Positions 11,069 through 62,166 of a stretch of 64,000 nt of DNA are shown here, in pieces (position 1 is the first letter of the stretch; each line of letters begins with the position of its first letter). The position numbers and the translations under genes are program-made. Origin of the DNA: Candidatus Zhuqueibacterota bacterium (GTDB lineage: Bacteria; Zhuqueibacterota; Zhuqueibacteria; Oceanimicrobiales; Oceanimicrobiaceae); the NCBI GenBank assembly GCA_029262005.1, contig JAJDAG010000037.1, forward strand, positions 1 through 64,000, given 5' to 3'. Under the pieces are notes generated by a model. That model saw only the letters and a list, made by a program, of their open reading frames with translations, searched no databases and was not told the DNA's origin.

Positions 11069-11178
11069 AGGTTGAGAGCCTGGTGTCTTTTGTTAAAAGT
11101 TGGTCTAAGACGACCGCAAAAATTCAATTTCCAGAATAGCTAACCGAGCATCTATTTTTCAATGAATCAACTCGATTT

Positions 11179-14639: not shown

Positions 14640-14732
14640 TGCGTGAAACTAGAATGGTCTTTTCATGCGTTGTGTAAGTTGGCGCGTGTTTCGCGGATAA
14701 AGGCCGGCACTGACAGAATAAGTCGATTAAAT

Positions 14733-14772
14733 AAAACAGTCCCGATGTTCCAATGAACGTCGGGACTGTTTT
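14733..14772. terminator. Bidirectional rho-independent terminator
   Basis: An 18-bp stem with one G-T wobble (aaaacagtcccgatgttc / gaacgtcgggactgtttt) and a CAAT loop, flanked by A/T runs on both sides. It lies between the convergent TPR-protein and dsbD genes and can end transcripts from both directions. Confidence 0.9.
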
Positions 14773-14812
14773 GTTTAAAGTTGGATGATGCTAGATAGCT
14801 GCAAACGCCTTA

Positions 14813-16630: not shown

Positions 16631-16752
16631 TTAAGTTTCTCCATCCGTTTGTGAGTGCAATTCATGCACACAATACTGCAAAACTTGCACACTTTACGTA
16701 TTGAAATTTTCTTTGATCCAGAGTTGCGGTATGTCGTTACCCAGAACGATTG

Positions 16753-17616
16753 CTAATTCTGTGTAGAAACAATCACATTTTTGGGTGGTGCCGGCGGCGT
16801 TGTGTCGCCTCCACTCTCAGCAGTTAGAACGATGTTTTTTGACGTTAACTGCTGCCCTGAGCTGATGCTTATATTTTCCGACCAGGTTTTATACCCGGGC
16901 TTGGAGCATTCAAGCGTGTAGCTTCCGCTTTGAATTGAATTAAAAGTGTAAACCCCTTGCGACCCGGATTTTATTTCATAGCGGATACTATTTCCTTCTT
17001 TCAACCTAAGTGTTGCATCGCTGATTGCGTTGCCGGTGTTGTCGGCTGTGACTTTGCCACTAATTGAAGTGGTTGGTGAACCTGAGCCACTGGTGTAAGT
17101 CAACTTCAGATTCTTGAAATAAGTTTCATCGGGCGGCGTCAGGCTTTGATTTGAAGAACCCTTTTGAAAGGCAATCTGCGTCCATTTGCCCGGCGGTTTT
17201 CCCGAGCTGTTCGAGTTATCCTCGGTGAATTCTATAAATACTTTATAAGCTCCATCCGGAACCACTGCACCTGATACATCGGTGCAATCCCAGGTAACAG
17301 CATGGGATTGATGATTTTTTAATGTCGCACTTGTCGTGGCATCTACAGTGTTGCTTTTTGATGCCGCGGTCCACTTTATCAAGTGCTTAATCCGTTTTTT
17401 TGCCCAGACTTTTATGGACTTTACGAATTGCCCGTTAGCATTTTCTATCCAAATTGCGCCAATATGCTTTGGATCATATTTCCCTTTGTATGTTACTGTT
17501 GTTACCTGAATATTCGCCGTACCGTTGGTCGGGGTAGGCGAATTCATGGCCGATGCGGCTGCTGTGAGCAGGATTATAAACGCGACGCTTGTTATGGCTA
17601 ATGATGTTGGTTTCAT
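16753..17616 (-). CDS. DUF2271-type exported protein fused to a carboxypeptidase-regulatory-like domain
   Basis: 287 aa. A signal peptide (LAITSVAFIILLTAAASA) leads into a DUF2271-like domain (about 30-170): TYKGKYDPKHIGAIWIE, LIKWTAA and GAYKVFIEFTEDN are typical of this family, which often lies beside DUF4266, DUF3570 and flavin-transferase genes. Residues about 175-270 form a beta-sandwich repeat (SGKVTADNTGNAISDATLRL ... SGSYTLECSKPGYK) of the CarboxypepD_reg type. The protein ends shortly after a Pro-rich segment (TTPPAPPKNVIV). Role unknown; the context suggests periplasmic redox or flavin-linked function. The family assignment is from memory of sequence patterns. Confidence 0.7.
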   Translation of the reverse strand: MKPTSLAITSVAFIILLTAAASAMNSPTPTNGTANIQVTTVTYKGKYDPKHIGAIWIENANGQFVKSIKVWAKKRIKHLIKWTAASKSNTVDATTSATLKNHQSHAVTWDCTDVSGAVVPDGAYKVFIEFTEDNSNSSGKPPGKWTQIAFQKGSSNQSLTPPDETYFKNLKLTYTSGSGSPTTSISGKVTADNTGNAISDATLRLKEGNSIRYEIKSGSQGVYTFNSIQSGSYTLECSKPGYKTWSENISISSGQQLTSKNIVLTAESGGDTTPPAPPKNVIVSTQN

Positions 17617-43550: not shown

Positions 43551-45500
43551 TTAGATCAAAGTCACATCACTCACAACTTCAAGCATTGCCGGCCCTTCGT
43601 GATTTATGATTTTTTGCAAAGCTTCATCCAGTTGTGCGCGCTCAGTTACTCGAATGCCAAGTGCGCCACAATTCCCGGCAAATTTTGCAAAATCGGGATT
43701 GTGTAAAGAGGTCTGCCATACATCCCATTGCCCGGCCCGTTGCTCTTTAGAGATTTTTTCGAGTTCACAATTATTGAGCAAGATGTGCTTAATGGGCATT
43801 TTGTATTTTACCGCAGTTGTTAATTCCATTGCGTATTGGCCGAAGCCACCATCTCCGGTGATCGCGAAAATTGGGCGATGTGGTGACGCCGCCCAGGCAC
43901 CCATAGCAGCCGGGTAACCAAAACCGATGGAACCAAGGTAGCCGGACATCAAAACCGATTGTTGCGTGCACTCAAAATAGCGTCCAAATGAGTAGGTGTT
44001 ATTGCCGACGTCAACTGCGATGACGGCGTTTTCTGGCACGTGGCGGTTCAGGGCGTCAAAGATGGCTGCTGAACTCACACCTTTGCCTCGGTCATCTTGC
44101 AGGCGACTTTGTTTTTCCTCTCGCCAGATTTCCCATCTGTTTGCCACTTCTTGTGTCTGATTTACATTGTTCATTTTTTCGCTAAGACGCTGTCCCAGCA
44201 GATTGACAACAATGCTTATTTCACCCCAAACCGGCACTGTCACCGGATGAAATTTGCCAAGCGCCATGGCTTCAATATCAACCTGGATTGTGGGTTTGTA
44301 TGAAGCGATACCGGTGTGATTTGAAAAGGAAGCGCCTAGCACCAGCAGCAAGTCCGCTTCGTTCATGAACCAACTGGCGATGGGGGTGCCGCTGCGTCCG
44401 AGTACGCCGCATCCAAGTGGGTGTTTGTCTGAAATCAGGCCTTTCCCCTTAAAGGTCGTAATCACTGGAATGCCGAAATTTTCAGCCAGACGGGTGATGG
44501 CAGGCATGTTAAAACGTGCGCCGTGACCAACGATAATCACGGGACGCTTTGCTTTATGCAGCAAATTTACAGCGTCGTCCATTGCACATTCAGAGGGTGC
44601 TATTTGACGAACGGGGAGGCGGCCGTCCGGCCCTCCGGCTTTGGCCTCTTCCGCTGCGGGCAGCGTTTGTATTTCATCCGGAAAAATCAGTTGCGCTACA
44701 TCGTTTTTGAGAATGGAATTTTTGATAGCAAGGTTCATCAGTTCGACATGCTTGCTGCTGTGCAAAACCGTTTGACTGTACTCGGCCACTGCTGAGAACG
44801 CCGCCGCCAAATCAACTTCCTGAAAAGTGCCTGGTCCGAGGACTTGTGTGTCTACTTGTCCGCAGAGCGCCAAAATAGGAGCGCGGTCAACTTTTGCATC
44901 CCATAGTCCGGTTAGGAGATTTGTTGAACCGGGGCCGGCAATGCCAAGACAGGCGGCTGGACGCCCGGTTAGTTTTGCGTAGCCTGAGGCGGCAAAAGCC
45001 GCAGCCCCTTCATGACGAACACCAAAATATTTGAGTTTTTTTTGTTTTTCCTGACGGCGCAGAGCATCAGCCAGACCCAGGTTGGAGTGACCGACCATAC
45101 CGAAAACGGTGTCAACGCCCCAGTTGACCATGGTTTCTGCCATAACGTCGGTGACGGTGCGCACGTGTGGCTTTTCAACCTCCAGACCGACATAAATACC
45201 GTCATCTCGAACTTCGACCGGAAATGTTTCCAGGCCATCTTCATGGCTGCCTGGTGACCTGCCGGTACAAGGATGGAAGTCCCAGCCGTGCCAGGGGCAG
45301 CGCAGCCAGCCTTTTTCGATTGAACCCTCACCAAGTGGGCCGCCCTGATGCGGACAGGCGTTTTCGAGGGCCGAAATTTTTCCTTCAAAGTGCGTCATGG
45401 CCAGGCCTTTGTGACCGGCCACTACTGTTTGAACCCGTCCTTCCGGCAGCTCGTCTTTGTCAAGGACTTTGTACCATTTCAAGTTTTGATTGTCTGTCAT
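43551..45500 (-). CDS. Thiamine-pyrophosphate enzyme with N-terminal Rieske [2Fe-2S] domain
   Basis: 649 aa fusion. Residues about 8-108 form a Rieske ferredoxin domain: C49PH51 and C68PWH71 are the four cluster ligands. Residues about 115-649 form a full acetolactate synthase/pyruvate oxidase-type TPP enzyme: N-terminal domain with catalytic Glu in RHEGAAAFAASGYAK, central domain (IIVGHGARFNMPAI), and C-terminal Mg-TPP motif GDGGFGQYAMELTTAV...LLNN. The normal enzyme starts where the Rieske part ends, so the fusion looks genuine and in one frame. It may oxidatively decarboxylate pyruvate or a related 2-oxo acid and send electrons to the cluster. Product unproven. AGGA lies before the ATG; no partner genes. 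Confidence 0.88.
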   Translation of the reverse strand: MTDNQNLKWYKVLDKDELPEGRVQTVVAGHKGLAMTHFEGKISALENACPHQGGPLGEGSIEKGWLRCPWHGWDFHPCTGRSPGSHEDGLETFPVEVRDDGIYVGLEVEKPHVRTVTDVMAETMVNWGVDTVFGMVGHSNLGLADALRRQEKQKKLKYFGVRHEGAAAFAASGYAKLTGRPAACLGIAGPGSTNLLTGLWDAKVDRAPILALCGQVDTQVLGPGTFQEVDLAAAFSAVAEYSQTVLHSSKHVELMNLAIKNSILKNDVAQLIFPDEIQTLPAAEEAKAGGPDGRLPVRQIAPSECAMDDAVNLLHKAKRPVIIVGHGARFNMPAITRLAENFGIPVITTFKGKGLISDKHPLGCGVLGRSGTPIASWFMNEADLLLVLGASFSNHTGIASYKPTIQVDIEAMALGKFHPVTVPVWGEISIVVNLLGQRLSEKMNNVNQTQEVANRWEIWREEKQSRLQDDRGKGVSSAAIFDALNRHVPENAVIAVDVGNNTYSFGRYFECTQQSVLMSGYLGSIGFGYPAAMGAWAASPHRPIFAITGDGGFGQYAMELTTAVKYKMPIKHILLNNCELEKISKEQRAGQWDVWQTSLHNPDFAKFAGNCGALGIRVTERAQLDEALQKIINHEGPAMLEVVSDVTLI

Positions 45501-48783: not shown

Positions 48784-49863
48784 TTACAACTTGACCTTTT
48801 GCCCATCTTTAATTTTGCTCACACCGGCAGTGACAATCAAGTCGCCGTCTGCTAAACCGGATAGAATTTCCAGGCCATCGGCGGTAAATTCGCCGAGCTG
48901 CACACTGACCCGCCGAGTGAAGGCTGTATCGCCGGCCGTGGGCTCGACCACGAAAACGAAGCGACCCTGACGATCTTCACCCACCGCCACTGATGGGATG
49001 GTGATTTGTTCGCGCGGAACGCCGCTCTGGAAGCTGAAAGTAACTTCCGCCGCCATGCCCGATCGAATGCCGGCACCGGTATCTGTAAGGCGCACCGTAG
49101 CAGGATAAGTCGTTGCGAATGCGGTTGATGTAATGCCAACTTCGCGCACGATGCCATTATATTTTTTATCCGGAATGGCGTCGAATGTGACTTGGACCCG
49201 GCTGCCTTGTTTTACGGCGGCTATCAGGATTTCCGGAATGGCAACGTCAACTTCAATCTCCGAACCTGAAGTTAGCATGATAATGCTCTGCCCGGCCATT
49301 ACGTTCTCATTGGCTTCAATATGGACCGAGGCGATTGAGCCTGAGGCAGGGGCTTTGAGCCTTGTGTAACTTAAGTGCAGCCGTGCCAGTTCATGCTGTT
49401 TTTCCGCTGCCTTAACGGCTGCTTTGATAGACTCAGATGAAGCGCGTGCGCCATCCAGATCACTTTTGGAGGCGTTGTTGTTCTCATAGAGTCCGCGAAC
49501 GCGTTCGTAGTCAGCATTTGCTTTTTGCAGACCGGCGCCGGCTTGATTGAGAGCAGCTTCTGCTTGTTGCACCTGGAGCTGATAATCTTTTGGGTCAAGA
49601 TAAGCGATGAGTTGGCCCATTCTTACTTTGTCGCCCACTTTAATCGGGACGGCCAAAACAGTTCCTGAAACTTTGAAGCTCAAATTGGCTTCAACGCCTG
49701 AACGAGCAGCACCTGAAAAGCTTCTCTGGCGATTACCGCCGGTTGTAAAGACCTGTACATAACGAACCGGGCGCAGGACTTCTTCGGTTGCCGGCTCATC
49801 GCTTTGACAGGACGTAAGCAGACAAAAAAGTGTCAAGGCGACACCGATGATTAATTTATACAT
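48784..49863 (-). CDS. RND efflux periplasmic adaptor (membrane fusion protein)
   Basis: 359 aa. It has a lipoprotein-type signal (TLFCLLTSCQSD), a beta-barrel/lipoyl region (SGTVLAVPIKVGDKVRMGQLIAYLD), a coiled-coil hairpin (about 95-160; QAEAALNQAGAGLQKANADYERV), the second lipoyl half (RLKAPASGSIASVHIEANENV) and the C-terminal barrel ending in GVSKIKDGQKVKL. This is the HlyD/AcrA family and bridges the RND pump to the outer-membrane channel. GGAG is well placed. It lies between the tolC-like fusion gene and the permease. Confidence 0.92.
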   Translation of the reverse strand: MYKLIIGVALTLFCLLTSCQSDEPATEEVLRPVRYVQVFTTGGNRQRSFSGAARSGVEANLSFKVSGTVLAVPIKVGDKVRMGQLIAYLDPKDYQLQVQQAEAALNQAGAGLQKANADYERVRGLYENNNASKSDLDGARASSESIKAAVKAAEKQHELARLHLSYTRLKAPASGSIASVHIEANENVMAGQSIIMLTSGSEIEVDVAIPEILIAAVKQGSRVQVTFDAIPDKKYNGIVREVGITSTAFATTYPATVRLTDTGAGIRSGMAAEVTFSFQSGVPREQITIPSVAVGEDRQGRFVFVVEPTAGDTAFTRRVSVQLGEFTADGLEILSGLADGDLIVTAGVSKIKDGQKVKL

Positions 49864-50170
49864 GATTTCTCCGTTTCACGATTTGATGACTGATGAATTA
49901 GTTGGTTCTATGTTGATCTGTGTGGATCCATTCGCTATCGATGCCGCGTCAAGATAAGTATTGGCCACGGACTTCCACGGATGAAACACAGATGTTAGTG
50001 ATTTGAAAGAAAAAGTTCGTGAAAACCTGTGTGAACCCGTGGCCGTAAAAACAATACCGGGCTTTTACCTCACAAGGTAAATGACCAATAGCGCAGTCTC
50101 TGAATTACTCTATAGATAGTTACTTTTCGATTGCGACTGTGAAAGCGGCTGCGGCGCTGAATGGCAGTTA
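49864..50170. repeat. Intergenic repeat-like stretch within the efflux locus
   Basis: About 307 bp without a gene. The part 49915-50050 contains gatctgtgtggatcc, ggccacggacttccacggatgaaacacagat and cctgtgtgaacccgtggccg, the same style of degenerate 'ctgtg...ccgtggcc' repeat seen at 8.2 and 26.5 kb. Flanked by the tolC-like fusion stop and the adaptor start. Confidence 0.5.
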
Positions 50171-52552
50171 TCACTCCGATGTTTTACCATGTTTTTGTAG
50201 TCGCTTTATCCACGCATCCCGTTCATCGGTCAAGGCGAAAAGATAGAATTTTCCGCTTGAACGCTCCACTTCCGCGAGGTCAATTAGAAAATCATAAATT
50301 GCGTTTGCAGCACCGAGCTTTGCAATGAGCGCTGCATTTTGAGCGTCGAGGAGGTCAAGGATGCTGAGGGCACCCCGGGTGTATGCATCTGTTACCAGTT
50401 CCAGGTTTTTCTGTGCTGCATTGGCAGCGTCGCTGGAGAGTTTGATGCCTGCCCGCGAGGCCCCGGCAATGTGCAAGGCCGAACGAATGCGCTGTTCAAT
50501 TTTTTCAAGAACGGATTGCCGATCGGCTTTTAATGCCTGCAATTCCTTGCCGGCTCGTGTTTTTTGTGCAAACCGGCCGCCGCCTTCAAACAGGGGCAGA
50601 GAAAGATTGAGCGCGATGCTCCAATTGCTCTTGTCTGCTTGTGGAAAACTAAAGGGTATTTCCGCTGATAAAGCCGGGCTCGATGTGCCGGCCCCGCCTT
50701 CCTTAAATATCCTGCCGATATCCGCCTGCAGCGCCAGTGCCGGCGACCAGAAGGCTCTGTTTGCCGAGGCCAGTTCGCGCTGCTTTGCAGCAATGACAGC
50801 ATCGAGAATGGCAATTTCGGGCGATGAACTCAACCCTTCTTCAACCATAAACTGGCGTGTTCGTTTAAATGAAACCGGGTCGTCCATAAAGTCGAGCAAT
50901 TCGTGGCGGCTGGTTGCCAGCGCCGGATTGTTTAGGTCTACTTCCCTGGTGGCGAAAGAGGCTTCCGGTGGTGCATGCAAAACACGATTGAGGGCGATTT
51001 CCGCCAAATTTCGTTGCGCGTTTGCTTGAATCACATCTTTGCGATCCAGGGCAACTTCACTTTCCCAGCGAAATACTTCTGAGCGACCCGAGTAGCCAAT
51101 GGCTTCGCGCACTTGCGCCAATTCCAGGTTGGATCGGGTTCGCCGCAAATTTTCTCTTTGCACACGCTCGAAAGTCTTGGCGCGTAGAACATTCAAAAAT
51201 GCATTGGCGCCTTCTTGCGCAATGTTGAGTCGCATCTGTTCCAGTTCATGAGTGCGCATTCTCTGAAGATGGTTTTGAATGGCCCGGTTGCTCCAGGCTT
51301 TTTCTGAATAAATCAGTTGGCTTGCCACTGCTGAGCCTTGCCACGTGCGTTGCGCCTGGGCGCCGAAGCTGGCCTCAGCCCTGTCTTTGTCGATAAGCAT
51401 GGCCCGGGATGAAATAGATATCTGCGGCAGGAGCAGGGCCAAAGCTTGCCGAACTTGCTGGTTGCCTGCGGCAAGTCGTTTTTTCTCTGCCTGCAGATCC
51501 AGATTTTTGTCAACAGCCTCACGCATAACGCCTGTCAAGCTTAAGGTTCTGGCTGTATGCGCCCGATGCTCATTAATCAGTTCAGCTTCAGTTAGAATAG
51601 TGAATGGCGGCGATACACCAATGTCTCGCGCAACTTCCATATTGATCATTAACCGTTCACCAATTGCAAAGGAGACAGGCAGCTCTTCCGGCTTTTCACC
51701 CAGCAGAATTCTCTGAAAATTAAGTGCGATTCGCCGCGTAATCTTGGGGAAGAATCCGTGAGTCAAAGTTGCCATGATGCCGCGTTTGAGGTTTTCTACT
51801 CCGAATGTCGAAAAGCTTGGAATTTTTTTCTGTCTCAGCACCGCGACCAGGCGGTCAAAATCGCCAGGGGGAATATGCATTAGTGGCGCCAGATAAACAG
51901 CTTCTGTATTATCGTTTAAGAAGCGCAACGCTGAGTCAATGGATTTTTCCACAGGCACAAGCCTGGCCTGGACTTTGAGTGGCGCCAGAGCGACCTTAAT
52001 TCTTGAATTGAATTGTGGAATCGATTCGTCAATAAGATGGTTGACAAGAACGGTGATGTTTGTGAACGGTACAATTTCACGAAAAATCTTAATGTCGCGG
52101 GCGATGTGTGACGGTAAAGATAAATAGTTCAGGTTAGCAATGCCGCTTGCGCCATTTTTCGCCGGCAAGCCCTGAAGCTCGGCGTCAATGACAAACGGTG
52201 CGATGACCGGCTTGGGCAGCGCACCACGGTTGCTGATTTCCCCGGAGGCAATGACACCCATGGCTATGACGAAATCGACTTCGGGATCGGTTAGTGATTT
52301 GTCGATGGCTGCGCGAATGCCGGCCAGTGTCCAGTCTGCTGCAATGATTTTGTCTTCGGGAAAGCGGACATCAAATTCGCCTTCCGTCAGTTTTATAATT
52401 TCGGTTTTTGTCATTTTTTGGATTTCATCATTGCGTTCCCACGGCCCGTCGATGACAATACCAACGTTAACAGTTTTTTGTTGTGCTGTAGCAGATTGAA
52501 AAAAGGCGAGGCAGAGTGCCAGCGCGATGTATTTATCGATTGAGGGCTTCAT
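50171..52552 (-). CDS. Fusion of ABC-type substrate-binding domain with TolC-like outer-membrane channel
   Basis: 793 aa; ordinary TolC-family proteins are about 420-480 aa. After a signal peptide (ALALCLAFFQSATAQQ), residues about 25-315 resemble the ABC_sub_bind (PF04392) periplasmic-binding family: VNVGIVIDGPWERND, FVIAMGVIASGEISNRG, TVLVNHLIDESI and FSTFGVENLKRGIMATL. Residues about 340-785 are an outer-membrane efflux protein with long helical hairpins and paired repeats (LDLQAEKKRLAAGNQQVRQA; SILDLLDAQNAALIAKLGA). One reading frame spans both halves. It is the outer-membrane partner of the RND pump encoded downstream. The binding domain may sense or deliver substrate in the periplasm (inference). 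Confidence 0.88.
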   Translation of the reverse strand: MKPSIDKYIALALCLAFFQSATAQQKTVNVGIVIDGPWERNDEIQKMTKTEIIKLTEGEFDVRFPEDKIIAADWTLAGIRAAIDKSLTDPEVDFVIAMGVIASGEISNRGALPKPVIAPFVIDAELQGLPAKNGASGIANLNYLSLPSHIARDIKIFREIVPFTNITVLVNHLIDESIPQFNSRIKVALAPLKVQARLVPVEKSIDSALRFLNDNTEAVYLAPLMHIPPGDFDRLVAVLRQKKIPSFSTFGVENLKRGIMATLTHGFFPKITRRIALNFQRILLGEKPEELPVSFAIGERLMINMEVARDIGVSPPFTILTEAELINEHRAHTARTLSLTGVMREAVDKNLDLQAEKKRLAAGNQQVRQALALLLPQISISSRAMLIDKDRAEASFGAQAQRTWQGSAVASQLIYSEKAWSNRAIQNHLQRMRTHELEQMRLNIAQEGANAFLNVLRAKTFERVQRENLRRTRSNLELAQVREAIGYSGRSEVFRWESEVALDRKDVIQANAQRNLAEIALNRVLHAPPEASFATREVDLNNPALATSRHELLDFMDDPVSFKRTRQFMVEEGLSSSPEIAILDAVIAAKQRELASANRAFWSPALALQADIGRIFKEGGAGTSSPALSAEIPFSFPQADKSNWSIALNLSLPLFEGGGRFAQKTRAGKELQALKADRQSVLEKIEQRIRSALHIAGASRAGIKLSSDAANAAQKNLELVTDAYTRGALSILDLLDAQNAALIAKLGAANAIYDFLIDLAEVERSSGKFYLFALTDERDAWIKRLQKHGKTSE

Positions 52553-52916: not shown

Positions 52917-53252
52917 TTAGAGTAGCTTACCCAATGGACCTAGATCGATGTTGAGTTCTTCGTCCATGAGACCAAAATGTTCTTTCAACTCCTCCATTTT
53001 ATCTTCCAGACGCATCAAGGTAAGCCCTAATATTTCCACTTCCTCAGAAGAAAGACTCTCGTTTTCTACTCGACGAAGTGCCTGTTTCTCAAGCAGCTTT
53101 CTAATCAACTCAATCAAAGTTAAAACCAGTTTACCCAAACCTTGTTCAACTTTATCCGGATCAAGGTTAATTTTTGGTGGCAAAGCTGTGCCTGGGTCTG
53201 TATCTTGTAATTTTATTTCTGTCAAATTTTGGCAATCTTTGGACTTTTCCAT
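52917..53252 (-). CDS. gvpK: Gas vesicle protein GvpK
   Basis: 111 aa. The core INLDPDKVEQGLGKLVLTLIELIRKLLEKQALRRVENESLSSEEVEILG is the GvpK signature, followed by the usual acidic helix and a hydrophobic tail (IDLGPLGKLL). GvpK is one of the proteins needed for gas vesicle assembly in most systems, with a proposed accessory role in early nucleation. It is the last gene of the cluster, 32 bp after the unrecognised 207-aa gene. No strong ribosome site. Confidence 0.95.
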   Translation of the reverse strand: MEKSKDCQNLTEIKLQDTDPGTALPPKINLDPDKVEQGLGKLVLTLIELIRKLLEKQALRRVENESLSSEEVEILGLTLMRLEDKMEELKEHFGLMDEELNIDLGPLGKLL

Positions 53253-53284
53253 TTGATCTTCAATTATCCTTTTTTAGCGAAACG

Positions 53285-53908
53285 TCACTTCCTGGCGAAA
53301 TGCGGTATATTGTCAAAAGGCAACCGATGAATCAAGAATCTAGGTACGATGCTTTCTGGTAAGTATTTATCCACTCTGTGCAACATACCCATGAACAGGA
53401 TTCCTGTTTCAGCCATTTTTAAAGTTTGATCAATTCTTTGTGCAATAAATCGATCCCGTTTCTCTAATAGACTCTTGCCGGCCAGCTGGTACTCCTTTAT
53501 GACCTTATTTTTTTCAATCTGACTTTTGGTTTTGAATATCCTTTGCAAATAATCATACTCTTTTAAAAGCAGCTCTCTATCTTCCGTGCCTTGTATCCCG
53601 GCACCCCGAGACATGAGGTCAACAAGTAACTTGTGGTTCAAACTCCCTTTTTGAGCTAAGTCGGATACGATTTCTTCTTCACGGCCGCATACGGGTAGAC
53701 CATCTTGGTACAATTTTACGATATTCCAATCGACATCTAAATCATCGAATCTTTCAACGATTCCATCCCACATGGCTTTAATAGCATCGATGTGCTCTTC
53801 ATATTTTTTATCCGGGTATTTCTTTTTAAATTCGTTTTTAAGAAATTCCGCCATCGAACCCAAGTCGGCCTCTGTGTGAATAATAGGCACGTATATTAAA
53901 TGGCGCAT
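53285..53908 (-). CDS. Unrecognised protein of the gas vesicle operon
   Basis: 207 aa, mostly helical and charged, no signal or membrane segment. The N-terminus MRHLIYVPIIHTEADLGSM and the C-terminal GILFMGMLHRVDKYLP both place a conserved-looking His after a hydrophobic strand, an arrangement that loosely recalls the paired xxxH motifs of TraB/EreA-type hydrolases; this is speculation. The middle contains NIVKLYQDGLPVCG and a Lys/Glu-rich helix. It overlaps the response-regulator gene by 13 bases and precedes gvpK, so it is clearly part of the operon. I cannot assign a function. Confidence 0.75.
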   Translation of the reverse strand: MRHLIYVPIIHTEADLGSMAEFLKNEFKKKYPDKKYEEHIDAIKAMWDGIVERFDDLDVDWNIVKLYQDGLPVCGREEEIVSDLAQKGSLNHKLLVDLMSRGAGIQGTEDRELLLKEYDYLQRIFKTKSQIEKNKVIKEYQLAGKSLLEKRDRFIAQRIDQTLKMAETGILFMGMLHRVDKYLPESIVPRFLIHRLPFDNIPHFARK

Positions 53909-54291
53909 CTGGACTGAACCTTTTCTTTGACCGCCTCTTTGAAGAGGGAATCAATAAAATCTAAGTCGAATGGTTTGGTGACATAATCGTAAGCACCCAG
54001 GCTCATCGCTTCTCGGGCAGTACCTATTTCGCCATAGCCGGTAAACATGATTACTGCGCCCTGGTCGTTTTTATCGATTTCTTTGATTCGCCGCAAGGTC
54101 TCAATACCATCAACATCAGGCATTTTTATGTCCAATAAAACAATGTCCGGATTTTCTGATTCAAAGAGCTGAAGGGCCTCGTCTCCGCTCTGTGCCAGAG
54201 CCACCTGGTAATCAAGGAAACTCAATGCGTCATTAAGAAAATCTAAAATATCCGATTCGTCATCTACAACTAACACTTTTATTTTTCTCAT
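53896..54291 (-). CDS. Stand-alone receiver-domain response regulator in the gas vesicle operon
   Basis: 131 aa, one REC domain only: acidic pocket VVDDES, phosphorylation site VLLDIKMPDVDG (Asp about 53), Thr in MFTGYG and Lys in VTKPFD are all present. No DNA-binding output domain, so it probably works by protein contact, like CheY/Spo0F types or the receivers that control filament assembly. AGG is spaced before the ATG, 14 bp after the Hsp20 stop. Its placement inside the operon suggests that gas vesicle formation responds to a phosphorelay; the kinase is not nearby. Confidence 0.9.
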   Translation of the reverse strand: MRKIKVLVVDDESDILDFLNDALSFLDYQVALAQSGDEALQLFESENPDIVLLDIKMPDVDGIETLRRIKEIDKNDQGAVIMFTGYGEIGTAREAMSLGAYDYVTKPFDLDFIDSLFKEAVKEKVQSRCAI

Positions 54292-54305
54292 ATCTAAACC
54301 TCCCT

Positions 54306-54782
54306 TTACTTTTCTTTTTTTAAGGGATGCAAGGTAATTTCCATGATTTCGTTATTAAGTAAAAACTGTATGTTACCCGGGTCAATTTGAAATGGAATTA
54401 ATACCTCTTTAATAAATTTTCTTTTGCCTGATACGGTGCTGCCTATGGCCTCGATTATAAAGACATCGCCCTCAACGTTGACCTGGACATCTTCTTTTTT
54501 ATGGACGCCTGGTATTTCGGCTATCACCATGGCCAATTCAGCTTCCTCAAATACCTCCGTATTGGGTTCTTGAACCTTGTCAACCAAAAGTGTCTTTTGG
54601 TACCTTGCAAATTTGGGTTCCGGCACAAAGACCCAGGCTTTGGGTTCGTTTGTCCTGGGTCCCGATTTGCGTGCTGATTGCTGTATGGCGTCAAAAGAAC
54701 TTTGGCTCCTGAAATCACCTTTTTCAGCTTTCCTGCGGAGATTTCTGGATGTTTTTATGTCTTTATACCCTTTGACACGCAT
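54306..54782 (-). CDS. Hsp20-family protein (second, GvpH-like) of the gas vesicle operon
   Basis: 158 aa. The N-terminal 70 residues are basic and low-complexity ([18 protein letters not shown]), and the C-terminal half is an alpha-crystallin-like domain ([32 protein letters not shown] ... [26 protein letters not shown]). It parallels the C-terminal part of the gvpH product at 57811 (EMPGVQKKDVKVDLQGDMLTI). Likely a small heat-shock chaperone keeping Gvp proteins soluble. The start overlaps the CDC48-type gene end by 20 bases, so translation is coupled. Confidence 0.88.
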
Positions 54783-56898
54783 GTTCTAAAGCTTCTTTGA
54801 AATAGCTCATTTCGATTTTGAATTTGCGCAAATCAAATTTCTCATCATCATGGGACGCCACCATTTTGCGTATGGCTATCATTGATGCCACGCGACAGAT
54901 TGCCTCGATATCGGCACCAACTAATCCTTCGGTTTTCGTAGCTAAAAGTTTAATATTTATATTTTTAGCCAAAGGTTTATCCCTGAGATGCACTTTGAAT
55001 ATTTTTTCCCGGGCCTTAACATCAGGGGCCGGCAGCTCAACCAGATAGTCAAACCGGCCCGGCCGCAGTACTGCGGGGTCAATGATGTCCACGCGGTTGG
55101 TTGCCGCTAACACCACCACATCCTTTAGTCCTTCAATGCCGTCCAACTCTGTCAATAATTGGCTGATCACCCGCTCGGTCACGTGAGAATCGCTCCCCCC
55201 AGATCCCCGAACCGGTGCAATCGCATCGATTTCGTCAAAAAAAAGGATACAGGGAGATGCCTGACGTGCTTTTTTAAACAGTTCTCTGACGCCCTTCTCG
55301 CTGTCGCCTACCCATTTTGACAATAGCTCCGGGCCCTTGATGGAGATGAAGTTGGTCTCGCTTTCGGTGGCCGCCGCTTTTGCCAGCAAAGTCTTTCCAG
55401 TTCCGGGGGGGCCGTAAAGCAAAATGCCTTTAGACGGGCTTGTCTTCGAAATTTCAAACAGTTCGCCATACTTGAGAGGCCATTCGATGGCCTCAATCAA
55501 CTGCTGTTTTACCTCTTCTAAACCACCAACTTGCTCCCACTTCACATTCGGCACTTCCGTGAAAACTTCTCGTATGGCTGAGGGTTCCACGTCTTTAATG
55601 GCGTCTTGGAAATGCTGCATGGTTACTTCCAGTTCCAACAGAGTTTCATAGGGTATCGAATCCATCTCAAACTCAATTTTAGGAAATAACATTCGCAAAG
55701 CCTGCATGGCAGCTTCCCGGCACAAGGCTGCTAAATCAGCTCCTACAAATCCGTGCGTAACTTCTGCCAATCTGGTTAAATCCACATCTTCCCCAAGAGG
55801 CATCCCGCGTGTGTGAATTTCTAAAACCTCCTGCCGCCCATTTTTGTCGGGAATTCCAATGGTTATTTCGCGGTCAAAACGTCCCGGACGTCGAAGCGCC
55901 GGGTCAATGGCGTTAGGAATATTCGTAGCGCCGATCACGATAACATTCCCTCGATTCGATAATCCATCCATTAAAGCTAAGAGCTGTGCAACGACGCGCT
56001 TTTCCACATCCCCTACAACCGACTCCCGTTTCGGGGCAATGGCATCAATTTCATCAAGAAAAATAATGCTGGGCGCCTCCTTGCTTGCTTGCTCAAAAAT
56101 TCCACGCAGTTTGGCTTCGCTTTCGCCATAAAATTTATGAATGACCTCCGGACCATTGATTGCGAAAAAGGAGGCTTCGGTCTCGTTGGCTACGGCTCTC
56201 GCAATTAAAGTCTTTCCAGTACCCGGGGGACCCAACAGTAAAACACCTTTGGGTGGATCAATGCCTAGTCTGTCGAAGATTTGTGGATACTTAAGCGGCA
56301 GCTCAATCATTTCCCGAATTCGCTGGATTTCCTTATGAAGTCCACCAATATCCTCGTAGGCAATTTTATGACCTGTTCGCTGCTCGCCTTCCCCGGTTTT
56401 TATCTGTATCAAGGTGCCGGGCTGGACGATCACGACGCCTTGGGGCACCGCATCCAGCACTGTAAAATCCTGAGAGCGGGAACCCACGAGATTAGCACGA
56501 ATCTGATCCCCTCTAACCAGAGGTAACCCTTCAATTAAGCGGCCTATATATCTGCTGTCTCTTTCCTTTTGTCCCCCTGGGAGAAGAGTTTGAGGATCCA
56601 GTATAATTTTGCTTGCCGCCTTGAATGGTACCTTTCGCAGTTTTACCCTTTCATCCAATCCAACTTTAGCATTTTCCCGCAACAGACCGTCCATTTGGAT
56701 TAACTTTTTCCCGCGATTGTCTGCGTAGGTGGGCATTAACTTTGCTACCGTCGTTCTTTTGCCATTAATCTCCACAATGTCCCCAACTTCGGCCCCAATT
56801 TCTTTCATATCTTGAGGATCGATTCGGGCAATACCTCGCCCGACATCTTTAGGCAAAGATTCAGAAACTCGCAACGCCTTGTAAGCGTTTTCTTTCAT
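54763..56898 (-). CDS. CDC48/VCP-type AAA+ ATPase with two AAA domains
   Basis: About 711 aa from the ATG at 56898, which has AGGA at good spacing; an ATG two codons earlier (56904) is too close to that site. The architecture is that of archaeal CDC48/VAT: N-domain ([21 protein letters not shown]), AAA-D1 with GPPGTGKT near 223 and [14 protein letters not shown]2 with GPPGTGKT near 496 and [10 protein letters not shown], and arginine-finger/SRH segments [21 protein letters not shown] and [20 protein letters not shown]. It unfolds or disassembles protein complexes in the cytosol. It overlaps the ArsA-like and Hsp20 genes on both sides. GvpN, the usual AAA ATPase of such operons, is absent here, and this enzyme may stand in its place (inference). 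Confidence 0.93.
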
Positions 56899-57814
56899 AT
56901 TCATTTCCTAAAAGACATTTAAATTTTCGTAAATGTTCAAGACCCCGAACCTGATTGTCTTGCTCGGGAATCTCATCGACTCTAAATTCAGTAAACGTAT
57001 CGCGTACTTCTGCTATGTAGCGCTGCTGTTCTTCCGACTTTCTTCTGCAAACGCGACAGTTGGATTCGTCGGTGACCAAAACCCGATTGATCAGAATTTG
57101 CTTTGCCGGTATCCTCTGTCGACTTAATGCGGTGATAAGTCGCCTGGTTTCATCGATAACGATTCTTTCCGGCAAAGTTACCACCACAAAATGACATTGC
57201 TGCGGGTCTTGAAATAAAGCATACAATTTCTTAATTGATTTTTTCATGTTAAAAAGAAAATCATCCGTGCTATTCGTTTGGCTCCGGCCAGAGAATCGGG
57301 ATACAAAATAGATATACTTCAGACGCAGCTTGGCTAGAATTTTAATCCAGTGATCCAGCAACTCAGGCATTTCCAAAAGTCTTAATGCGTGTCCTGTTGG
57401 AGCGGTATCGAGAACATAGCGGTCAAATTCATTTGCTTCTATAAAATCAAGCATCTTAATCAATGCTATCACTTCGTCAAGACCGGGTATGCTCAAGGTG
57501 CCAATATCTTCAAGGTCTGTTTCATCTAAATAAGTAGCTGTGCTCAATATCTCTTTAATATGTTGACCAAATTCTTCCTTGAAACTAAGCAGGTTTTTGT
57601 CGGCGTCAATTTCAATGGCAGATAGAGAATCGAGCCCGGAGACTTTTTTAATCCGGTTTCCAATCGTTTGATTCAGACAGTCAGAAAGAGAGTGAGCCGG
57701 ATCTGCGGAAAGCAGGAGCGTTTTTTCTTCAATAAGTGCATATTGGATGGCGGTAGCAGCAGCACAGGATGTCTTGCCCACGCCTCCTTTTCCGCCAAAT
57801 ATCGTTAATGTCAT
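56861..57814 (-). CDS. ArsA/Get3-like ATPase of the gas vesicle operon
   Basis: 317 aa. Deviant Walker A motif [11 protein letters not shown] at the N-terminus, switch and DP/H region [11 protein letters not shown], and [17 protein letters not shown] are typical of ArsA/Get3/TRC40. A CxxC (NCRVC, about 272) matches the zinc-linked dimer motif of Get3 proteins and lies before a conserved [11 protein letters not shown]. No arsenite-pump genes are near, so a Get3-like chaperone role for hydrophobic proteins such as GvpA-type subunits is more likely than arsenic export (inference). Start overlaps the gvpH stop as ATGA. Confidence 0.9.
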
Positions 57815-58335
57815 TTATCAAGCCTAATCTCGAGAATTCCATTTTTAAAAGCATAAAACAAAGAATCCGGCTTTACTTTTGCCGGGAGTAAAATTTCCTT
57901 TTGATATTTTCTCTTAGGGTTCTGTGCGCTGATAGTAAGCATATCGCCCTGCAAATCTACCTTCACGTCCTTTTTTTGTACACCCGGCATTTCTACAATC
58001 ACCTGGACGATTTTTTCTTCATCGAATATGTCTGACATGGGCTCGCGAATTTCTTCTACGACCGGGCCTTTGGGGGTCTTTTTTATGTTTCCAAATGTTT
58101 CAACTTCAGGTGTCCCACCCAGGCCGGTTTTTACTGAGAAGCCATAGACACCTTTTAGATCTTTTAGTGCGCCTTCTCCGGTAAACTCTTTTGTACCTTC
58201 AACAGTTGATTGGCCCTTTTCTGCCATTTCAGAAACCAATTCTACCAGATTTCCAATACCTTTGAACAGGCCGCCGAGACCCAAATCTAAATTTATCTGG
58301 GGCTCTTCTTCTTTTCTTTTGTTTTTTTTATTCAT
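57811..58335 (-). CDS. gvpH: Gas vesicle protein GvpH (Hsp20-like)
   Basis: 174 aa. The N-terminal segment INLDLGLGGLFKGIGNLVELVSEMAEKG is the signature of GvpH, and the C-terminal 80 residues are an alpha-crystallin domain (VQVIVEMPGVQKKDVKVDLQGDMLTISA ... ILEIRLDK). GvpH acts as a small chaperone and, in haloarchaea, modulates other Gvp proteins. Start overlaps the gvpJ-like stop as ATGA and its stop overlaps the ArsA-like gene as ATGA. Confidence 0.92.
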   Translation of the reverse strand: MNKKNKRKEEEPQINLDLGLGGLFKGIGNLVELVSEMAEKGQSTVEGTKEFTGEGALKDLKGVYGFSVKTGLGGTPEVETFGNIKKTPKGPVVEEIREPMSDIFDEEKIVQVIVEMPGVQKKDVKVDLQGDMLTISAQNPKRKYQKEILLPAKVKPDSLFYAFKNGILEIRLDK

Positions 58336-58661
58336 TGTGTCATCCTCTTATTTAATATTCTTTTATTTACTATTTCTATATTGTCTTCTATTCTATTTAG
58401 CCGATCCCTGAGCCGCTGATTGTCTTCTTGAAGCTCTTTGGCTTGGGTTGAGAGATACGAGTCATTCTCCCACCAGTTAATCCCCATTTCCATGGCTTTG
58501 TCTACTGAGGCCACCAATAATCTAATTTTGATTTTAAGCAGCTCAACATCAGCCAGGTAAATGGAAATATCACCTGCGATGACAATCCCTTTATCTAAAA
58601 CCCGTTCCAGGATGTCGGCTAAGTTGGTACTGTCAACACTATGGGTTATTTTGTCAGCCAT
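58332..58661 (-). CDS. gvpJ: Gas vesicle protein of the GvpA/GvpJ family (GvpJ-like)
   Basis: 109 aa. Contains the GvpA-fold core NLADILERVLDKGIVIAGDISIYLADVELLKIKIRLLVASVDKAMEMGINWW, followed by a charged coiled-coil tail of about 40 residues. The WW-x-NDSYLS segment and tail mark it as a minor shell or nucleation component (GvpJ/GvpM type) rather than the major GvpA rib protein, which is shorter and more hydrophobic. It overlaps gvpH as ATGA. The letter J is a best guess among J/M/S. Confidence 0.9.
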   Translation of the reverse strand: MADKITHSVDSTNLADILERVLDKGIVIAGDISIYLADVELLKIKIRLLVASVDKAMEMGINWWENDSYLSTQAKELQEDNQRLRDRLNRIEDNIEIVNKRILNKRMTQ

Positions 58662-58718
58662 TCCTTCACCTTCTTGTCTATTGATAAAAATCTTTCGACA
58701 GATTGAAATTATTTGAGT

Positions 58719-58904
58719 TTACTTACGTTCAAGTCGTTTTTTTAACAACATTTCCTGGCGCTCTATGCGCTCTATGCGCTCTTGTTCGTTTTTCCTTTCT
58801 CTGTCTTTTTGAACCAGCCTTCCACAGACTTTCGGCGCTGAATGCATAGATTTAATGTTTTTGCGTGTCCTGATTTGTAAAGAAGTGATAGGCTTCATCA
58901 TCAA
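58719..58904 (-). CDS. Small basic coiled-coil protein of the gas vesicle operon
   Basis: 61 aa, from an ATG that overlaps the stop of the preceding GvpA/S-like gene (TGATGATG...), so it is likely translated by coupling. The N-terminal part ITSLQIRTRKNIKSMH resembles LDNIRTSQTTKVRSI at the start of the 106-aa coiled-coil protein at 63379; both end in a Lys/Glu/Arg-rich helix with KKRLER/QKRLER. Highly basic, no membrane segment. Possibly an adaptor binding the same partner as the larger protein. No named family recognised. Confidence 0.65.
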   Translation of the reverse strand: MMMKPITSLQIRTRKNIKSMHSAPKVCGRLVQKDRERKNEQERIERIERQEMLLKKRLERK

Positions 58905-59137
58905 GCGATCTCCATGTTTTCGGTGTTTTTATAATTTCCCAAACGAAGATCTTCAATACTCTCAATAGCTGTGATCAGCACTCGTAAATCTATGTACACT
59001 AAATCGATGTCAGCGACCGAGATGGTAATGTCTCCGGCAATGACCACACCTTTATTTAACACTCTGTCCAATATATCGACAAGGCTGACGTGTTTTGTGC
59101 TGCTTGTAATATCACTGGAAGTGTGGACCCTGTGCAT
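58901..59137 (-). CDS. Short GvpA/GvpS-like gas vesicle protein
   Basis: 78 aa. The core SLVDILDRVLNKGVVIAGDITISVADIDLVYIDLRVLITAIESI is the GvpA-family helix-strand-strand-helix unit, close to that of the GvpJ-like protein but with a different end (LRLGNYKNTENM). It is probably a minor shell or cap component (GvpS/J type). It is not convincing as the major GvpA, which normally keeps a strictly conserved sequence around DAWARVSLVGIE. The stop overlaps the next gene. ATG lies 11 bases downstream of a gvpF/L stop. Confidence 0.88.
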   Translation of the reverse strand: MHRVHTSSDITSSTKHVSLVDILDRVLNKGVVIAGDITISVADIDLVYIDLRVLITAIESIEDLRLGNYKNTENMEIA

Positions 59138-59148
59138 ACTGAGAACCC

Positions 59149-60000
59149 TTAAATAATAGCGAAACTGTTCGGCGGCCAGGCTCGATCTTCAAATGTGAAG
59201 CCATCCGGCTCATGTCGCTTTTGCAGCCTTTTTAACTGATCTAAAAATCCTATTAGCTCTTTTTTTTCTACTAAAAAAGCCGCTCTAAGCACCAGTTCAC
59301 GATCACCGGATTTCTTTTCGATGATTTTATTTAAACATGCGTCCTCAGCAACGGCTTCCAGTTTCCAGTAGCTTGTTTGAGTAACCTCTCCTATGTGCGC
59401 CACCATTTTCTCCTCACCGGCATATTCCTGCTTTTTTTTCAAGATGTAGGCCAAACCAGGAGATTTGATATCTGATTTCTTTTCAGGAGTATTACTTTTT
59501 TCGTCTGCGCTTTTTATATAATTTTTTAGATTTTCTTTTTTGCAAAATATTTTGACCTCTATTTCCATCTTTCCAAACAACTTATTCAAAATGTTAATAA
59601 ACTTCTCATAGTTGTCTTTCACCATCTCTTTGACCCGGGCTTCGCTTTTAAAAATTGTACAAAAGTTCATCGGGAGGAGGTTGTGATCCTGCATCAGAAG
59701 TTCTATTTTCTCTTCATGAGCCCGAACGCGGCGGTCAATCCATTGCAATTCCTCAGCTTCAATTTTTTCATGAATGCGCTCAGGGTTAAATTCCGTCAAT
59801 GATACCCGACTGACAACCGCTGTCAAGTTTTCATACGGAACGGTATAAATGGGAAATCGGTTGTCGATGCCGAGAAGCATCCTATCCACTAATTTAACGT
59901 TATCCTGCCTCGAAAGAATACAGTACACGTAAATCCCGATGTCCTCTTCCCAATATTCGCCTTTGACGGGCACATGGCTAACAGTCTTTACTGCGGTCAT
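59149..60000 (-). CDS. gvpF/L: GvpF/GvpL family protein (copy 3)
   Basis: 283 aa. Standard GvpL/F fold in two halves: IGIYVYCILSRQDN at the N-terminus, LTAVVSRVSLTEFNPE, the conserved PMNFCTIFKSEARVKEM block, ELVLRAAFLVEKKELIGFLDQL and a terminal PPNSFAII. The charged insert (about 155-190) is specific to this copy. GvpF/L proteins bind GvpA and help load it during assembly. It is the most divergent of the three copies here. A purine-rich GGAAGAAAG lies before the ATG; 84 bp separate it from gvpG. Confidence 0.9.
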   Translation of the reverse strand: MTAVKTVSHVPVKGEYWEEDIGIYVYCILSRQDNVKLVDRMLLGIDNRFPIYTVPYENLTAVVSRVSLTEFNPERIHEKIEAEELQWIDRRVRAHEEKIELLMQDHNLLPMNFCTIFKSEARVKEMVKDNYEKFINILNKLFGKMEIEVKIFCKKENLKNYIKSADEKSNTPEKKSDIKSPGLAYILKKKQEYAGEEKMVAHIGEVTQTSYWKLEAVAEDACLNKIIEKKSGDRELVLRAAFLVEKKELIGFLDQLKRLQKRHEPDGFTFEDRAWPPNSFAII

Positions 60001-60083
60001 TTACTTTCTTCCATATCTCTGAATATTCGATAACACCAAATTCAGTTTCCCACCCGTCTTCCATTTTTCCGACTGAATGATCT

Positions 60084-60329
60084 TTACTCGACGATCTCTC
60101 CCTCGCTTTCCTGTATGGCTGTAATTTTTTCCACTATTTCTATTTCTTGCGCTTTGTATTCCTCTTCGCCAATTTCGTCCAGTTCGTACCTCAGTTGCAG
60201 CTCCAACAATTTTCTTTGCCAGTGTTCTTTATCACTCAATTCTTGATCGACATATTTTTGCAGCTCTTTGAAAATCCCTAATAACCCTTTGAAGGGTAAA
60301 ATTAATATATCATCCACCAGAAAAGCCAT
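60084..60329 (-). CDS. gvpG: Gas vesicle protein GvpG
   Basis: 81 aa, matching the small helical GvpG family: ILPFKGLLGIFKELQKYVDQEL, then a coiled-coil with LLELQLRYELDEIGEEEYKAQE. GvpG lies between gvpF and gvpL in most operons, as here between two gvpF/L copies, and interacts with GvpF/L in the assembly complex. It is 16 bp after the preceding gvpF/L gene. Confidence 0.92.
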   Translation of the reverse strand: MAFLVDDILILPFKGLLGIFKELQKYVDQELSDKEHWQRKLLELQLRYELDEIGEEEYKAQEIEIVEKITAIQESEGEIVE

Positions 60330-60345
60330 GCCGAAGTCTCCAAGA

Positions 60346-61116
60346 TCAGTTCAGTTGCAACTCAGCAAGATTGATAACGATTTCAATAAAGTTATAAGGC
60401 GGAATCGGGCCGACATATTTAATTTTCAACCGTCCGTTGTTGATTTCACCAAGTTTCTGCACCGTCTCGTCAATAAATTTTTCCTGATTTTTATCTGCCA
60501 AAAATGCGGCATTAAAAATCATTTTATCGCCAATAATTTTGTTCGTCTTGTACTGGGTGTAGAGAGTTTTAAATTGGCTTAGTAGTTCTTCTCCTTCCCG
60601 CTCTCGTTTTTGCTCGAGGGCTTCTTCCACCAATTTCCCGATTTCAATTCTTTGAAAATAGGTGCTCTCCGGTGGCTGCGAAGCCAATTCGCCTCTCAAT
60701 TTCAGTATGTTGTCATTCTGTTGCAGGATTTCCTCATAGCCGATTTCACCGTTCCAAAATACTTTCAAACCCAGTTCTCGCTTTCCATTCATGGCCGCCA
60801 AATTTTCTTTAAACTCAGCATATCTCTTTTCCAAAATCGTCTGCACACTGGTTTCATCTTTGGCAATGGTGCCAAAGCGAACAGGCAGCGGAGTCAGATT
60901 TTTAGACATGGCCTCTTCAACCACTCGCTGATGTGCCAGATAATGGTCGCTAATAAAAGAATAACTGACTATGGGCGAATCGCTAACCACGATGCCAATA
61001 TCTTTATAGTGCAGGCTGCGCACTTGTGAAAGCGTTTTACCGATGTTCTTCGACTTAAAGTCTTGACTTTTCTCTCCCTCAACAATACAGTAAATATACT
61101 TGCCTGTCTCTTCCAT
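60346..61116 (-). CDS. gvpF/L: GvpF/GvpL family protein (copy 2)
   Basis: 256 aa, the usual length. N-terminal GKYIYCIVEG, then IGIVVSDSPIVSYSF, the conserved block LTPLPVRFGTIAKDETSVQ, FWNGEIGYEEIL and the second half DKMIFNAAFLADKNQEKFIDETV ... KYVGPIPPYNFIEI. It is closely similar to the GvpL/F part of the J-domain fusion encoded directly upstream (stop and start are adjacent: TAAATG), pointing to a tandem duplication. Role as GvpA-binding assembly factor. Confidence 0.92.
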   Translation of the reverse strand: MEETGKYIYCIVEGEKSQDFKSKNIGKTLSQVRSLHYKDIGIVVSDSPIVSYSFISDHYLAHQRVVEEAMSKNLTPLPVRFGTIAKDETSVQTILEKRYAEFKENLAAMNGKRELGLKVFWNGEIGYEEILQQNDNILKLRGELASQPPESTYFQRIEIGKLVEEALEQKREREGEELLSQFKTLYTQYKTNKIIGDKMIFNAAFLADKNQEKFIDETVQKLGEINNGRLKIKYVGPIPPYNFIEIVINLAELQLN

Positions 61117-62166
61117 TTAACTATCCACACAATCTTTGTTATTTGATTCGTCATTAACTAAAACCGTGTCTCTGATAACTTGCTCGCTAAAAGAGAAACG
61201 ATAGTTCTGACAAAAGGTCTCTAAGACGTGATAAGCCTTGGCAATAATTTTGAATTGTTCTTCCGCTTCAGGATTTTCACTGATTTTATCTGGGTGGTAC
61301 TTGACAACTAAAGTTCGGTAGGCGGACTTTATTTCCGTCATAGTTGCTTTGCAGGGAAGCCCTAATGTTTTTCTGGCTTCTTCAATCAATTCAAAGTCTG
61401 TTAAGGTGAGTTTTAAGTTGACGAAGCTGTAGGGAGGCAGTGGGCCCACATATTTGAAGTTGAGCTGTCCTTCATATTTGCCGGCTAATTTATTAACCTT
61501 TTTATCAAAGTCAGGCTCGCCTTTTTTGCTCACCAAAAAAGAGCCGTTGAAAATCATGTCTTCGCCCAGTAATTTGCCGTGGGAAAAATTGTAATTGCCA
61601 TTTCGAAGTGTATAAAGAATGTCTGCATTATAGATTTTTTCTTTAGAGGAAACGGCTTCGTGGATGACTTTACCCATTTCAATTCTGGCCAGGAGATTAT
61701 CTCCTTCAGAACCAGAACTAAGCGCATTTTTCAGTTCGACAACTTTTTTGTCTGTGCCGGCAATTTCTTGAATCCAGTTTTGTTTGTTGCCAACGGCTTG
61801 CACAACCAATTCTACTTTTCCTTTTACTCTGTTCAGAACCGATTTGAATTGAATATAGGCGCGTTCCAAAATCATTTTAACGTCTTCATCACTTTCAGCA
61901 ATGTTTCCGAATTTCATCGGTGCCACTGTGAAGTTTTTCATAACCGTTTCATTTACTCTTTGGTGCGCAACGATCAACTCCCTTAAGTGATTCTCTTCAA
62001 GCCGATCAAATTCCACAACAGGATGGTTGCTGACCACCGCTGCAATGTCATTAAAGTGCAGAGTGGTGACTTCATTGCCTGACCCACCAATTCCAATCGC
62101 GCCGAAATTCTTTTTTTGGCTGGCCCCAATAACGCCATAGATATATTTGCCTTGTTTTTCTTTCAT
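61117..62166 (-). CDS. gvpF/L: GvpF/GvpL protein fused to a C-terminal DnaJ (J) domain
   Basis: 349 aa. Residues 1-258 are a full GvpF/L protein (GKYIYGVIGAS, VAPMKFGNIAESDEDVKMI, KYVGPLPPYSFVNL). Residues about 263-320 add a J-domain: ARKTLGLPCKATMTEIKSAYRTL, the essential HPD tripeptide (His291-Asp293 in KYHPDK) and the fourth-helix region FKIIAKAYHVLE. A 30-residue tail follows. Normal GvpF/L ends where the J-domain begins, so this is a real in-frame fusion. It could recruit DnaK to nascent gas vesicle subunits (inference). The DnaJ-type zinc-finger-like gene lies 236 bp upstream. Confidence 0.93.
   Translation of the reverse strand: MKEKQGKYIYGVIGASQKKNFGAIGIGGSGNEVTTLHFNDIAAVVSNHPVVEFDRLEENHLRELIVAHQRVNETVMKNFTVAPMKFGNIAESDEDVKMILERAYIQFKSVLNRVKGKVELVVQAVGNKQNWIQEIAGTDKKVVELKNALSSGSEGDNLLARIEMGKVIHEAVSSKEKIYNADILYTLRNGNYNFSHGKLLGEDMIFNGSFLVSKKGEPDFDKKVNKLAGKYEGQLNFKYVGPLPPYSFVNLKLTLTDFELIEEARKTLGLPCKATMTEIKSAYRTLVVKYHPDKISENPEAEEQFKIIAKAYHVLETFCQNYRFSFSEQVIRDTVLVNDESNNKDCVDS

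Follow-up and report, generated by a model that had tools for sequence, protein, structure and literature searches.

One gene in the window (the whole stretch of 64,000 nucleotides analysed here, from a Candidatus Zhuqueibacterota genome) encodes a TolC-family outer-membrane channel that carries a periplasmic-binding-fold domain ahead of its channel part. The fusion is no local oddity but belongs to a widespread family, a real variant of the TolC/OMF family that is apparently undescribed. For its function we favour, at a probability of about 50%, a reading in which the N-terminal domains sit as a rigid collar on the equatorial belt of the channel and act on the channel and adaptor, not by feeding cargo to the pump.

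Architecture and predicted fold

The reading frame starts with ATG and runs without an internal stop as a single intact gene (Table 1). The initial annotation had placed one signal peptide and an ABC-type binding domain ahead of a TolC-like channel, with a boundary at about residue 330, and each of these elements is found in this one frame. PF04392 (ABC_sub_bind) matches residues 81–323 (Pfam; E = 5.7e-10, 39.3 bits against a cut-off of 25.9), and PF02321 (OEP) matches two stretches of the channel part (E = 1.5e-40, 139.5 bits against a gathering score of 22). PF02321 is matched by all 59 homologues, and PF04392 by 34 of the 59 at E 0.01. The linker, counted from the last helix of the binding domain to the first channel residue, is of nearly constant length, and its sequence is free to vary. 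The description of the protein as nearly twice the normal size holds in that it is larger, but is slightly generous (793 residues, where TolC chains of E. coli in the PDB have 428–493).

Both halves of the fusion are backed by predicted folds. With 59 natural homologues, AlphaFold2 models the full protein at a mean pLDDT of 87.9 and a pTM of 0.73, and TolC-type barrel strands and long helices are present in the secondary structure of the channel half. In a Foldseek comparison of this model with the PDB, the channel half is matched to TolC (best TM by target 0.85), and the N-terminal half to 3LFT, 3LKV and 6HNI (TM 0.79, 0.80 and 0.74, respectively). Modelled alone, the N-terminal domain (residues 26–330) reaches a pLDDT of 94.6, with 3LFT as its top Foldseek match (E = 7e-16; TM 0.79/0.81), in keeping with the periplasmic-binding fold proposed earlier. 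A profile of the domain, run against PDB sequences, likewise finds 3LKV (E = 2.9e-12), 3LFT (6.3e-8) and CD0873 (1.4e-5).

Table 1. Coordinates of the fusion gene, its parts and the downstream pump genes
Feature	Position	Strand	Basis
SBP-TolC fusion gene, 793 aa	50171..52552	-	ORF and Pfam; intact full-length relatives
Signal peptide without lipobox, residues 1 to ~24	52481..52552	-	Read from sequence; lipobox absent in 58/59 homologues
Type-I periplasmic-binding-fold domain, PF04392/TrpX-like, residues ~26–323	51584..52477	-	Pfam, PDB profile search, AlphaFold2, Foldseek
Linker, residues 324–337	51542..51583	-	14 aa in 56/59 homologues, 13 in 3
TolC-family outer-membrane channel, residues ~338–793, two OEP repeats	50174..51541	-	Pfam, AlphaFold2, Foldseek
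Periplasmic adaptor, RND_mfp	48784..49863	-	TIGR01730 above cut-off
RND permease, ACR_tran, 1033 aa	45601..48702	-	Scores below the cut-offs of large NCBIfam RND subfamilies

The locus in the window

On the minus strand the fusion gene is followed by the adaptor gene and then by the RND permease gene, so the RND setting assigned by the initial annotation stands: channel, adaptor and permease lie adjacent, as in an RND tripartite efflux operon. The permeases that adjoin the fusion in five KSB1-type relatives are 68–76% identical to that of the window. The fusion gene is the single PF04392 match in the source genome. A dispersed repeat, TGTGTTTCATCCGTGGAAGTCCGTGGC, lies between the fusion and adaptor genes (49964–49990), and its 20-base core has 16 copies in the genome at three or fewer mismatches (0 for the reversed control).

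Upstream of the fusion, 364 bases off, lies a GvpK gene (52917–53252), part of a gas-vesicle cluster on the minus strand (52917–62166) that also includes several GvpF/L-like and Hsp20-like proteins, a response-regulator-like protein and a CDC48-type AAA+ ATPase (54763–56904). One GvpF/L-like protein of this cluster (61117–62166, minus strand) has an apparent C-terminal J-domain, with an HPD motif. A separate fusion is encoded at 43551–45500 (minus strand), where a Rieske [2Fe-2S] domain stands ahead of a complete pyruvate-oxidase-like ThDP enzyme in a protein of 649 residues. This second fusion is not an artefact, because it is kept in three family genomes (77–80% identity), in G002 and in a second copy in G003 (55% identity for the last two).

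Spread of the fusion

The source genome is metagenome-assembled, in 205 contigs, which would be compatible with an accidental gene fusion or an assembly artefact. The probability of that explanation is negligible, since the same architecture recurs in assemblies made independently from many phyla. Among them are three complete chromosomes (Desulfosarcina alkanivorans, Desulfoluna limicola and Sulfidibacter corallicola) and one complete plasmid, from Sulfuricurvum; a contig chimera is rejected on these independent complete genomes.

A single-protein pattern search of genome contigs gave no matches; an alignment-based scan of the species-genome collection succeeded, and of the 206 candidate stretches that it gave, 192 are relatives. 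Of these, the best 80 (L064–L143), which were picked by likeness to the query and so do not give unbiased frequencies, cover at least 12 named phyla: KSB1, Thermodesulfobacteriota, Pseudomonadota, Nitrospirota, Acidobacteriota, Myxococcota, Ignavibacteriota, Bacteroidota, Gemmatimonadota, Planctomycetota, Nitrospinota, Hydrogenedentota and others. The Sulfuricurvum plasmid adds Campylobacterota, and Cetobacterium plasmids add Fusobacteriota. Within its own phylum, full-length fusions are found in six genomes (G002, G003, G012, G031, G036 and G052).

The initial annotation had raised the possibility of two genes split at about residue 330 in related genomes. None is split there among the best 80 of the 192 relatives, and no two-gene arrangement is found across 81 genomes of the phylum. 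In those 81 genomes, strong matches to a profile of the N-terminal domain (E < 1e-50) fall only in fused frames, in frames cut by contig ends and in one decayed copy in G052. Five apparent exceptions were rejected as split genes: the pieces in G005, G006, G054 and G065 stop at contig ends, and a three-frame reading of L134 reveals a frame change inside one contiguous homologue. Two long frames of the phylum with PF04392 matches (L044 and L048) were likewise rejected as channel fusions, both being histidine kinases. In G023 (contig C19, 10845–13556), three tandem PF04392 domains share one open frame of 1250 residues.

Pump partners

An RND permease adjoins the fusion in 56 of 66 readable loci (46 downstream, 9 upstream and 1 divergent). 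The other ten comprise six with RbbA-type ABC-2 genes, one with a MacB-like set (L115, on the strand opposite to the fusion) and three without a pump in view. The six ABC-2-type loci hold an adaptor, an ABC-2 ATPase/permease of RbbA size and an ABC permease. HlyD and RbbA-like ABC-2 exporters stand beside the fusion at L100, L130, L132, L135–L138, L140 and L143, the type being assigned by Pfam at L130 and L132 and by gene sizes, gene order and adaptor match at the others. By annotation, RbbA and an ABC permease also adjoin the copy on the Sulfuricurvum plasmid (L061). At one KSB1 locus (L072), an additional 419-residue frame (10487–11746) comes after the fusion, and beyond it stand a divergent adaptor and an RND permease of unusual length (13717–17310, ~1197 residues).

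Because 56 of the 66 loci adjoin RND genes but seven adjoin ABC exporters, the binding domain follows the channel rather than the RND pump. What stays constant beside it is the channel with its adaptor, since the same fusion occurs with RND, ABC-2/RbbA and MacB-type sets. On the tree, the loci with the order adaptor, RND permease, fusion form one Desulfobacterota clade (SH-aLRT 100), and the ABC-linked copies fall in two separate places. From the partner genes and these two places we conclude that the type of pump was switched and the channel kept its domain.

These partners bear on what the domain may do. The periplasm can supply substrate to RND pumps, and a solute-binding fold that sits on a pump component, with an RND permease next door in most readable contexts, could gather an export substrate in the periplasm and deliver it to the pump or duct in the manner of CusF. 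We regard such capture as unlikely. Delivery to the RND porter is opposed by distance, by the linker and by the partners: the short linker of fixed length at the channel start would, by the expected geometry, hold the domain far from the porter entrance; the domain is also borne by channels linked to ABC exporters; and no ligand signature is retained (see below). The proposal of the initial annotation that the domain loads the pump is thus disfavoured, and its interpretation as a whole is partly supported.

The binding cleft

TrpX and its relatives hold aromatic amino acids by T108, A127, T129, D152 and N233 (PMC9382623, after PMC6816091). In a profile alignment of low identity, these positions correspond to V100, F120, I122, L146 and H226 of the window protein, and across 59 sequences they are occupied by V/I/Y, F, I/V, L/S/F and R/H/Q, respectively. 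By this low-identity mapping, the T/A/T/D/N contacts are not kept in the 59 sequences of the fusion family, whereas some free-standing relatives retain the TrpX ligand motifs. Asp35 and Gly36, at the end of strand 1 near the cleft, are conserved in 59 and 57 of the 59 sequences, which could reflect a retained ligand; Gly99, Asn140, Tyr143 and Gly258 are also near-invariant. The strand-end loops that face the cleft have a mean pair identity of 0.31, against 0.41 for the rest of the domain, and within clades too they are no better conserved than the rest; a control set of free-standing relatives is likewise without excess, so the comparison does not discriminate. Low conservation of these loops would also fit ligands that differ by lineage. 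No ABC importer permease and ATPase are found beside the fusion, the neighbours being the adaptor and RND permease, or ABC exporters.

The fusobacterial version is shorter. The Cetobacterium copies lack window residues 211–237 or 211–240, a segment that includes one strand of the second lobe; measured to where the channel begins, their N-terminal part is shorter by ~55 residues, and their linker has 13 residues. They keep Asn304, Ala308 and Pro315, and in a comparison that rests on two sequences the N-terminal part is collinear (hhalign E = 1.6e-4, probability 50). The fusobacterial domain thus seems, from its alignment, to have lost one strand of the second lobe.

The main rival to the collar is a ligand-gated duct, in which the domain binds a lineage-specific small molecule of the periplasm and closure of its lobes, transmitted through the linker, eases opening of the duct or docking of the adaptor. 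We consider this possible, though tentatively. The two-lobed fold is complete and modelled with high confidence, the residues named above are near-invariant, the linker is fixed in length, PF04392-type domains also serve as sensor parts in histidine kinases of the phylum (L044 and L048), and the entrance coils of TolC pivot at the equatorial domain (PMC13095208, PMC13082787). Against it stand the loss of the TrpX-type contact residues, the cleft loops, whose conservation does not rise above that of the rest overall or by clade (with the control equally without excess), and the likely loss of a second-lobe strand in Fusobacteriota. A broader version, a widespread class of ducts in which the binding domain at the TolC belt senses a periplasmic metabolite and sets opening with either an RND or an ABC pump, we find rather doubtful.

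A proposed collar at the equatorial belt

We favour the rigid collar because the short linker of fixed length puts the domain at the chain position of the lipid anchor and of YbjP. The equatorial belt of CusC and OprM, close to the outer membrane, is where their channel helices start (PMC3017539). E. coli TolC is without a lipid anchor; instead, its protomers are bridged by YbjP, which binds the equatorial domain with 3:3 stoichiometry (PMC13095208, PMC13082787). We infer the place of the binding domain on the channel from chain order and from these precedents.

The gene product would be the exit duct of a tripartite, envelope-spanning exporter, served in the source genome by an RND pump, and probably a trimer, as is expected of its family; its operon neighbours are in line with a channel that works with adaptor and pump. 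Each subunit would bear an unlipidated N-terminal domain of the type-I solute-binding fold, with a single Sec signal peptide for export, and the linker of 13–14 residues would tie this domain to the first helix of the channel, at the equatorial belt. Since the fixed linker joins each domain there, the three would make a collar around the channel, on the periplasmic side near the outer membrane, at the site of the lipidated N-terminal strand in CusC and OprM and of YbjP binding in E. coli TolC. From this site the domains may position or stabilise the duct, or help to open it, through the channel and adaptor, with no hand-over of substrate to the inner-membrane pump.

Comparison with known systems

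Searches of the open PMC literature, which omits most subscription papers and preprints, gave no paper that describes the SBP-TolC fusion. Existing records name the fusion 'TolC family protein' or 'ABC transporter substrate binding protein', and export channels can therefore hide under the latter annotation. What holds, positions and opens TolC channels is under active study, with fresh impetus from the YbjP papers of 2026, and a family with a domain at probably the same belt, kept across phyla and through a switch of pump, offers a test of the belt as an anchor versus a control point.

Like other members of the TolC/OprM family (PF02321), the fusion has two OEP repeats, resembles TolC in its model (TM up to 0.85 by target) and shares an operon with an adaptor and an RND permease. 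Unlike them, it has ~300 extra N-terminal residues, which form the binding domain, and it scores 112 on TIGR01844 against a cut-off of 225. It also differs from the lipidated channels of the OprM/CusC type in having no N-terminal lipobox cysteine, as do all but one of the 59 homologues. CusF of the CusF-CusCBA system, a small separate metallochaperone, is a works-like model for the capture of substrate only.

The binding domain resembles the TrpX/PF04392 proteins (3LFT, 3LKV and CD0873, 6HNI) in fold (TM ~0.8) and in a collinear profile match (E = 2.9e-12 to 3LKV), but here it is fused to a channel, has no ABC importer alongside and does not keep the T/A/T/D/N contacts; on the TrpX NCBIfam model the fusion scores 27 bits versus 390. 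The closest parallel in position would be YbjP-TolC of E. coli, with one accessory domain per protomer at the equatorial belt, a place that the fusion probably shares (PMC13082787, PMC13095208). YbjP, however, is a separate lipoprotein with a Tai3-like fold, whereas the domain of the fusion is covalently attached, unlipidated and of the binding-protein fold.
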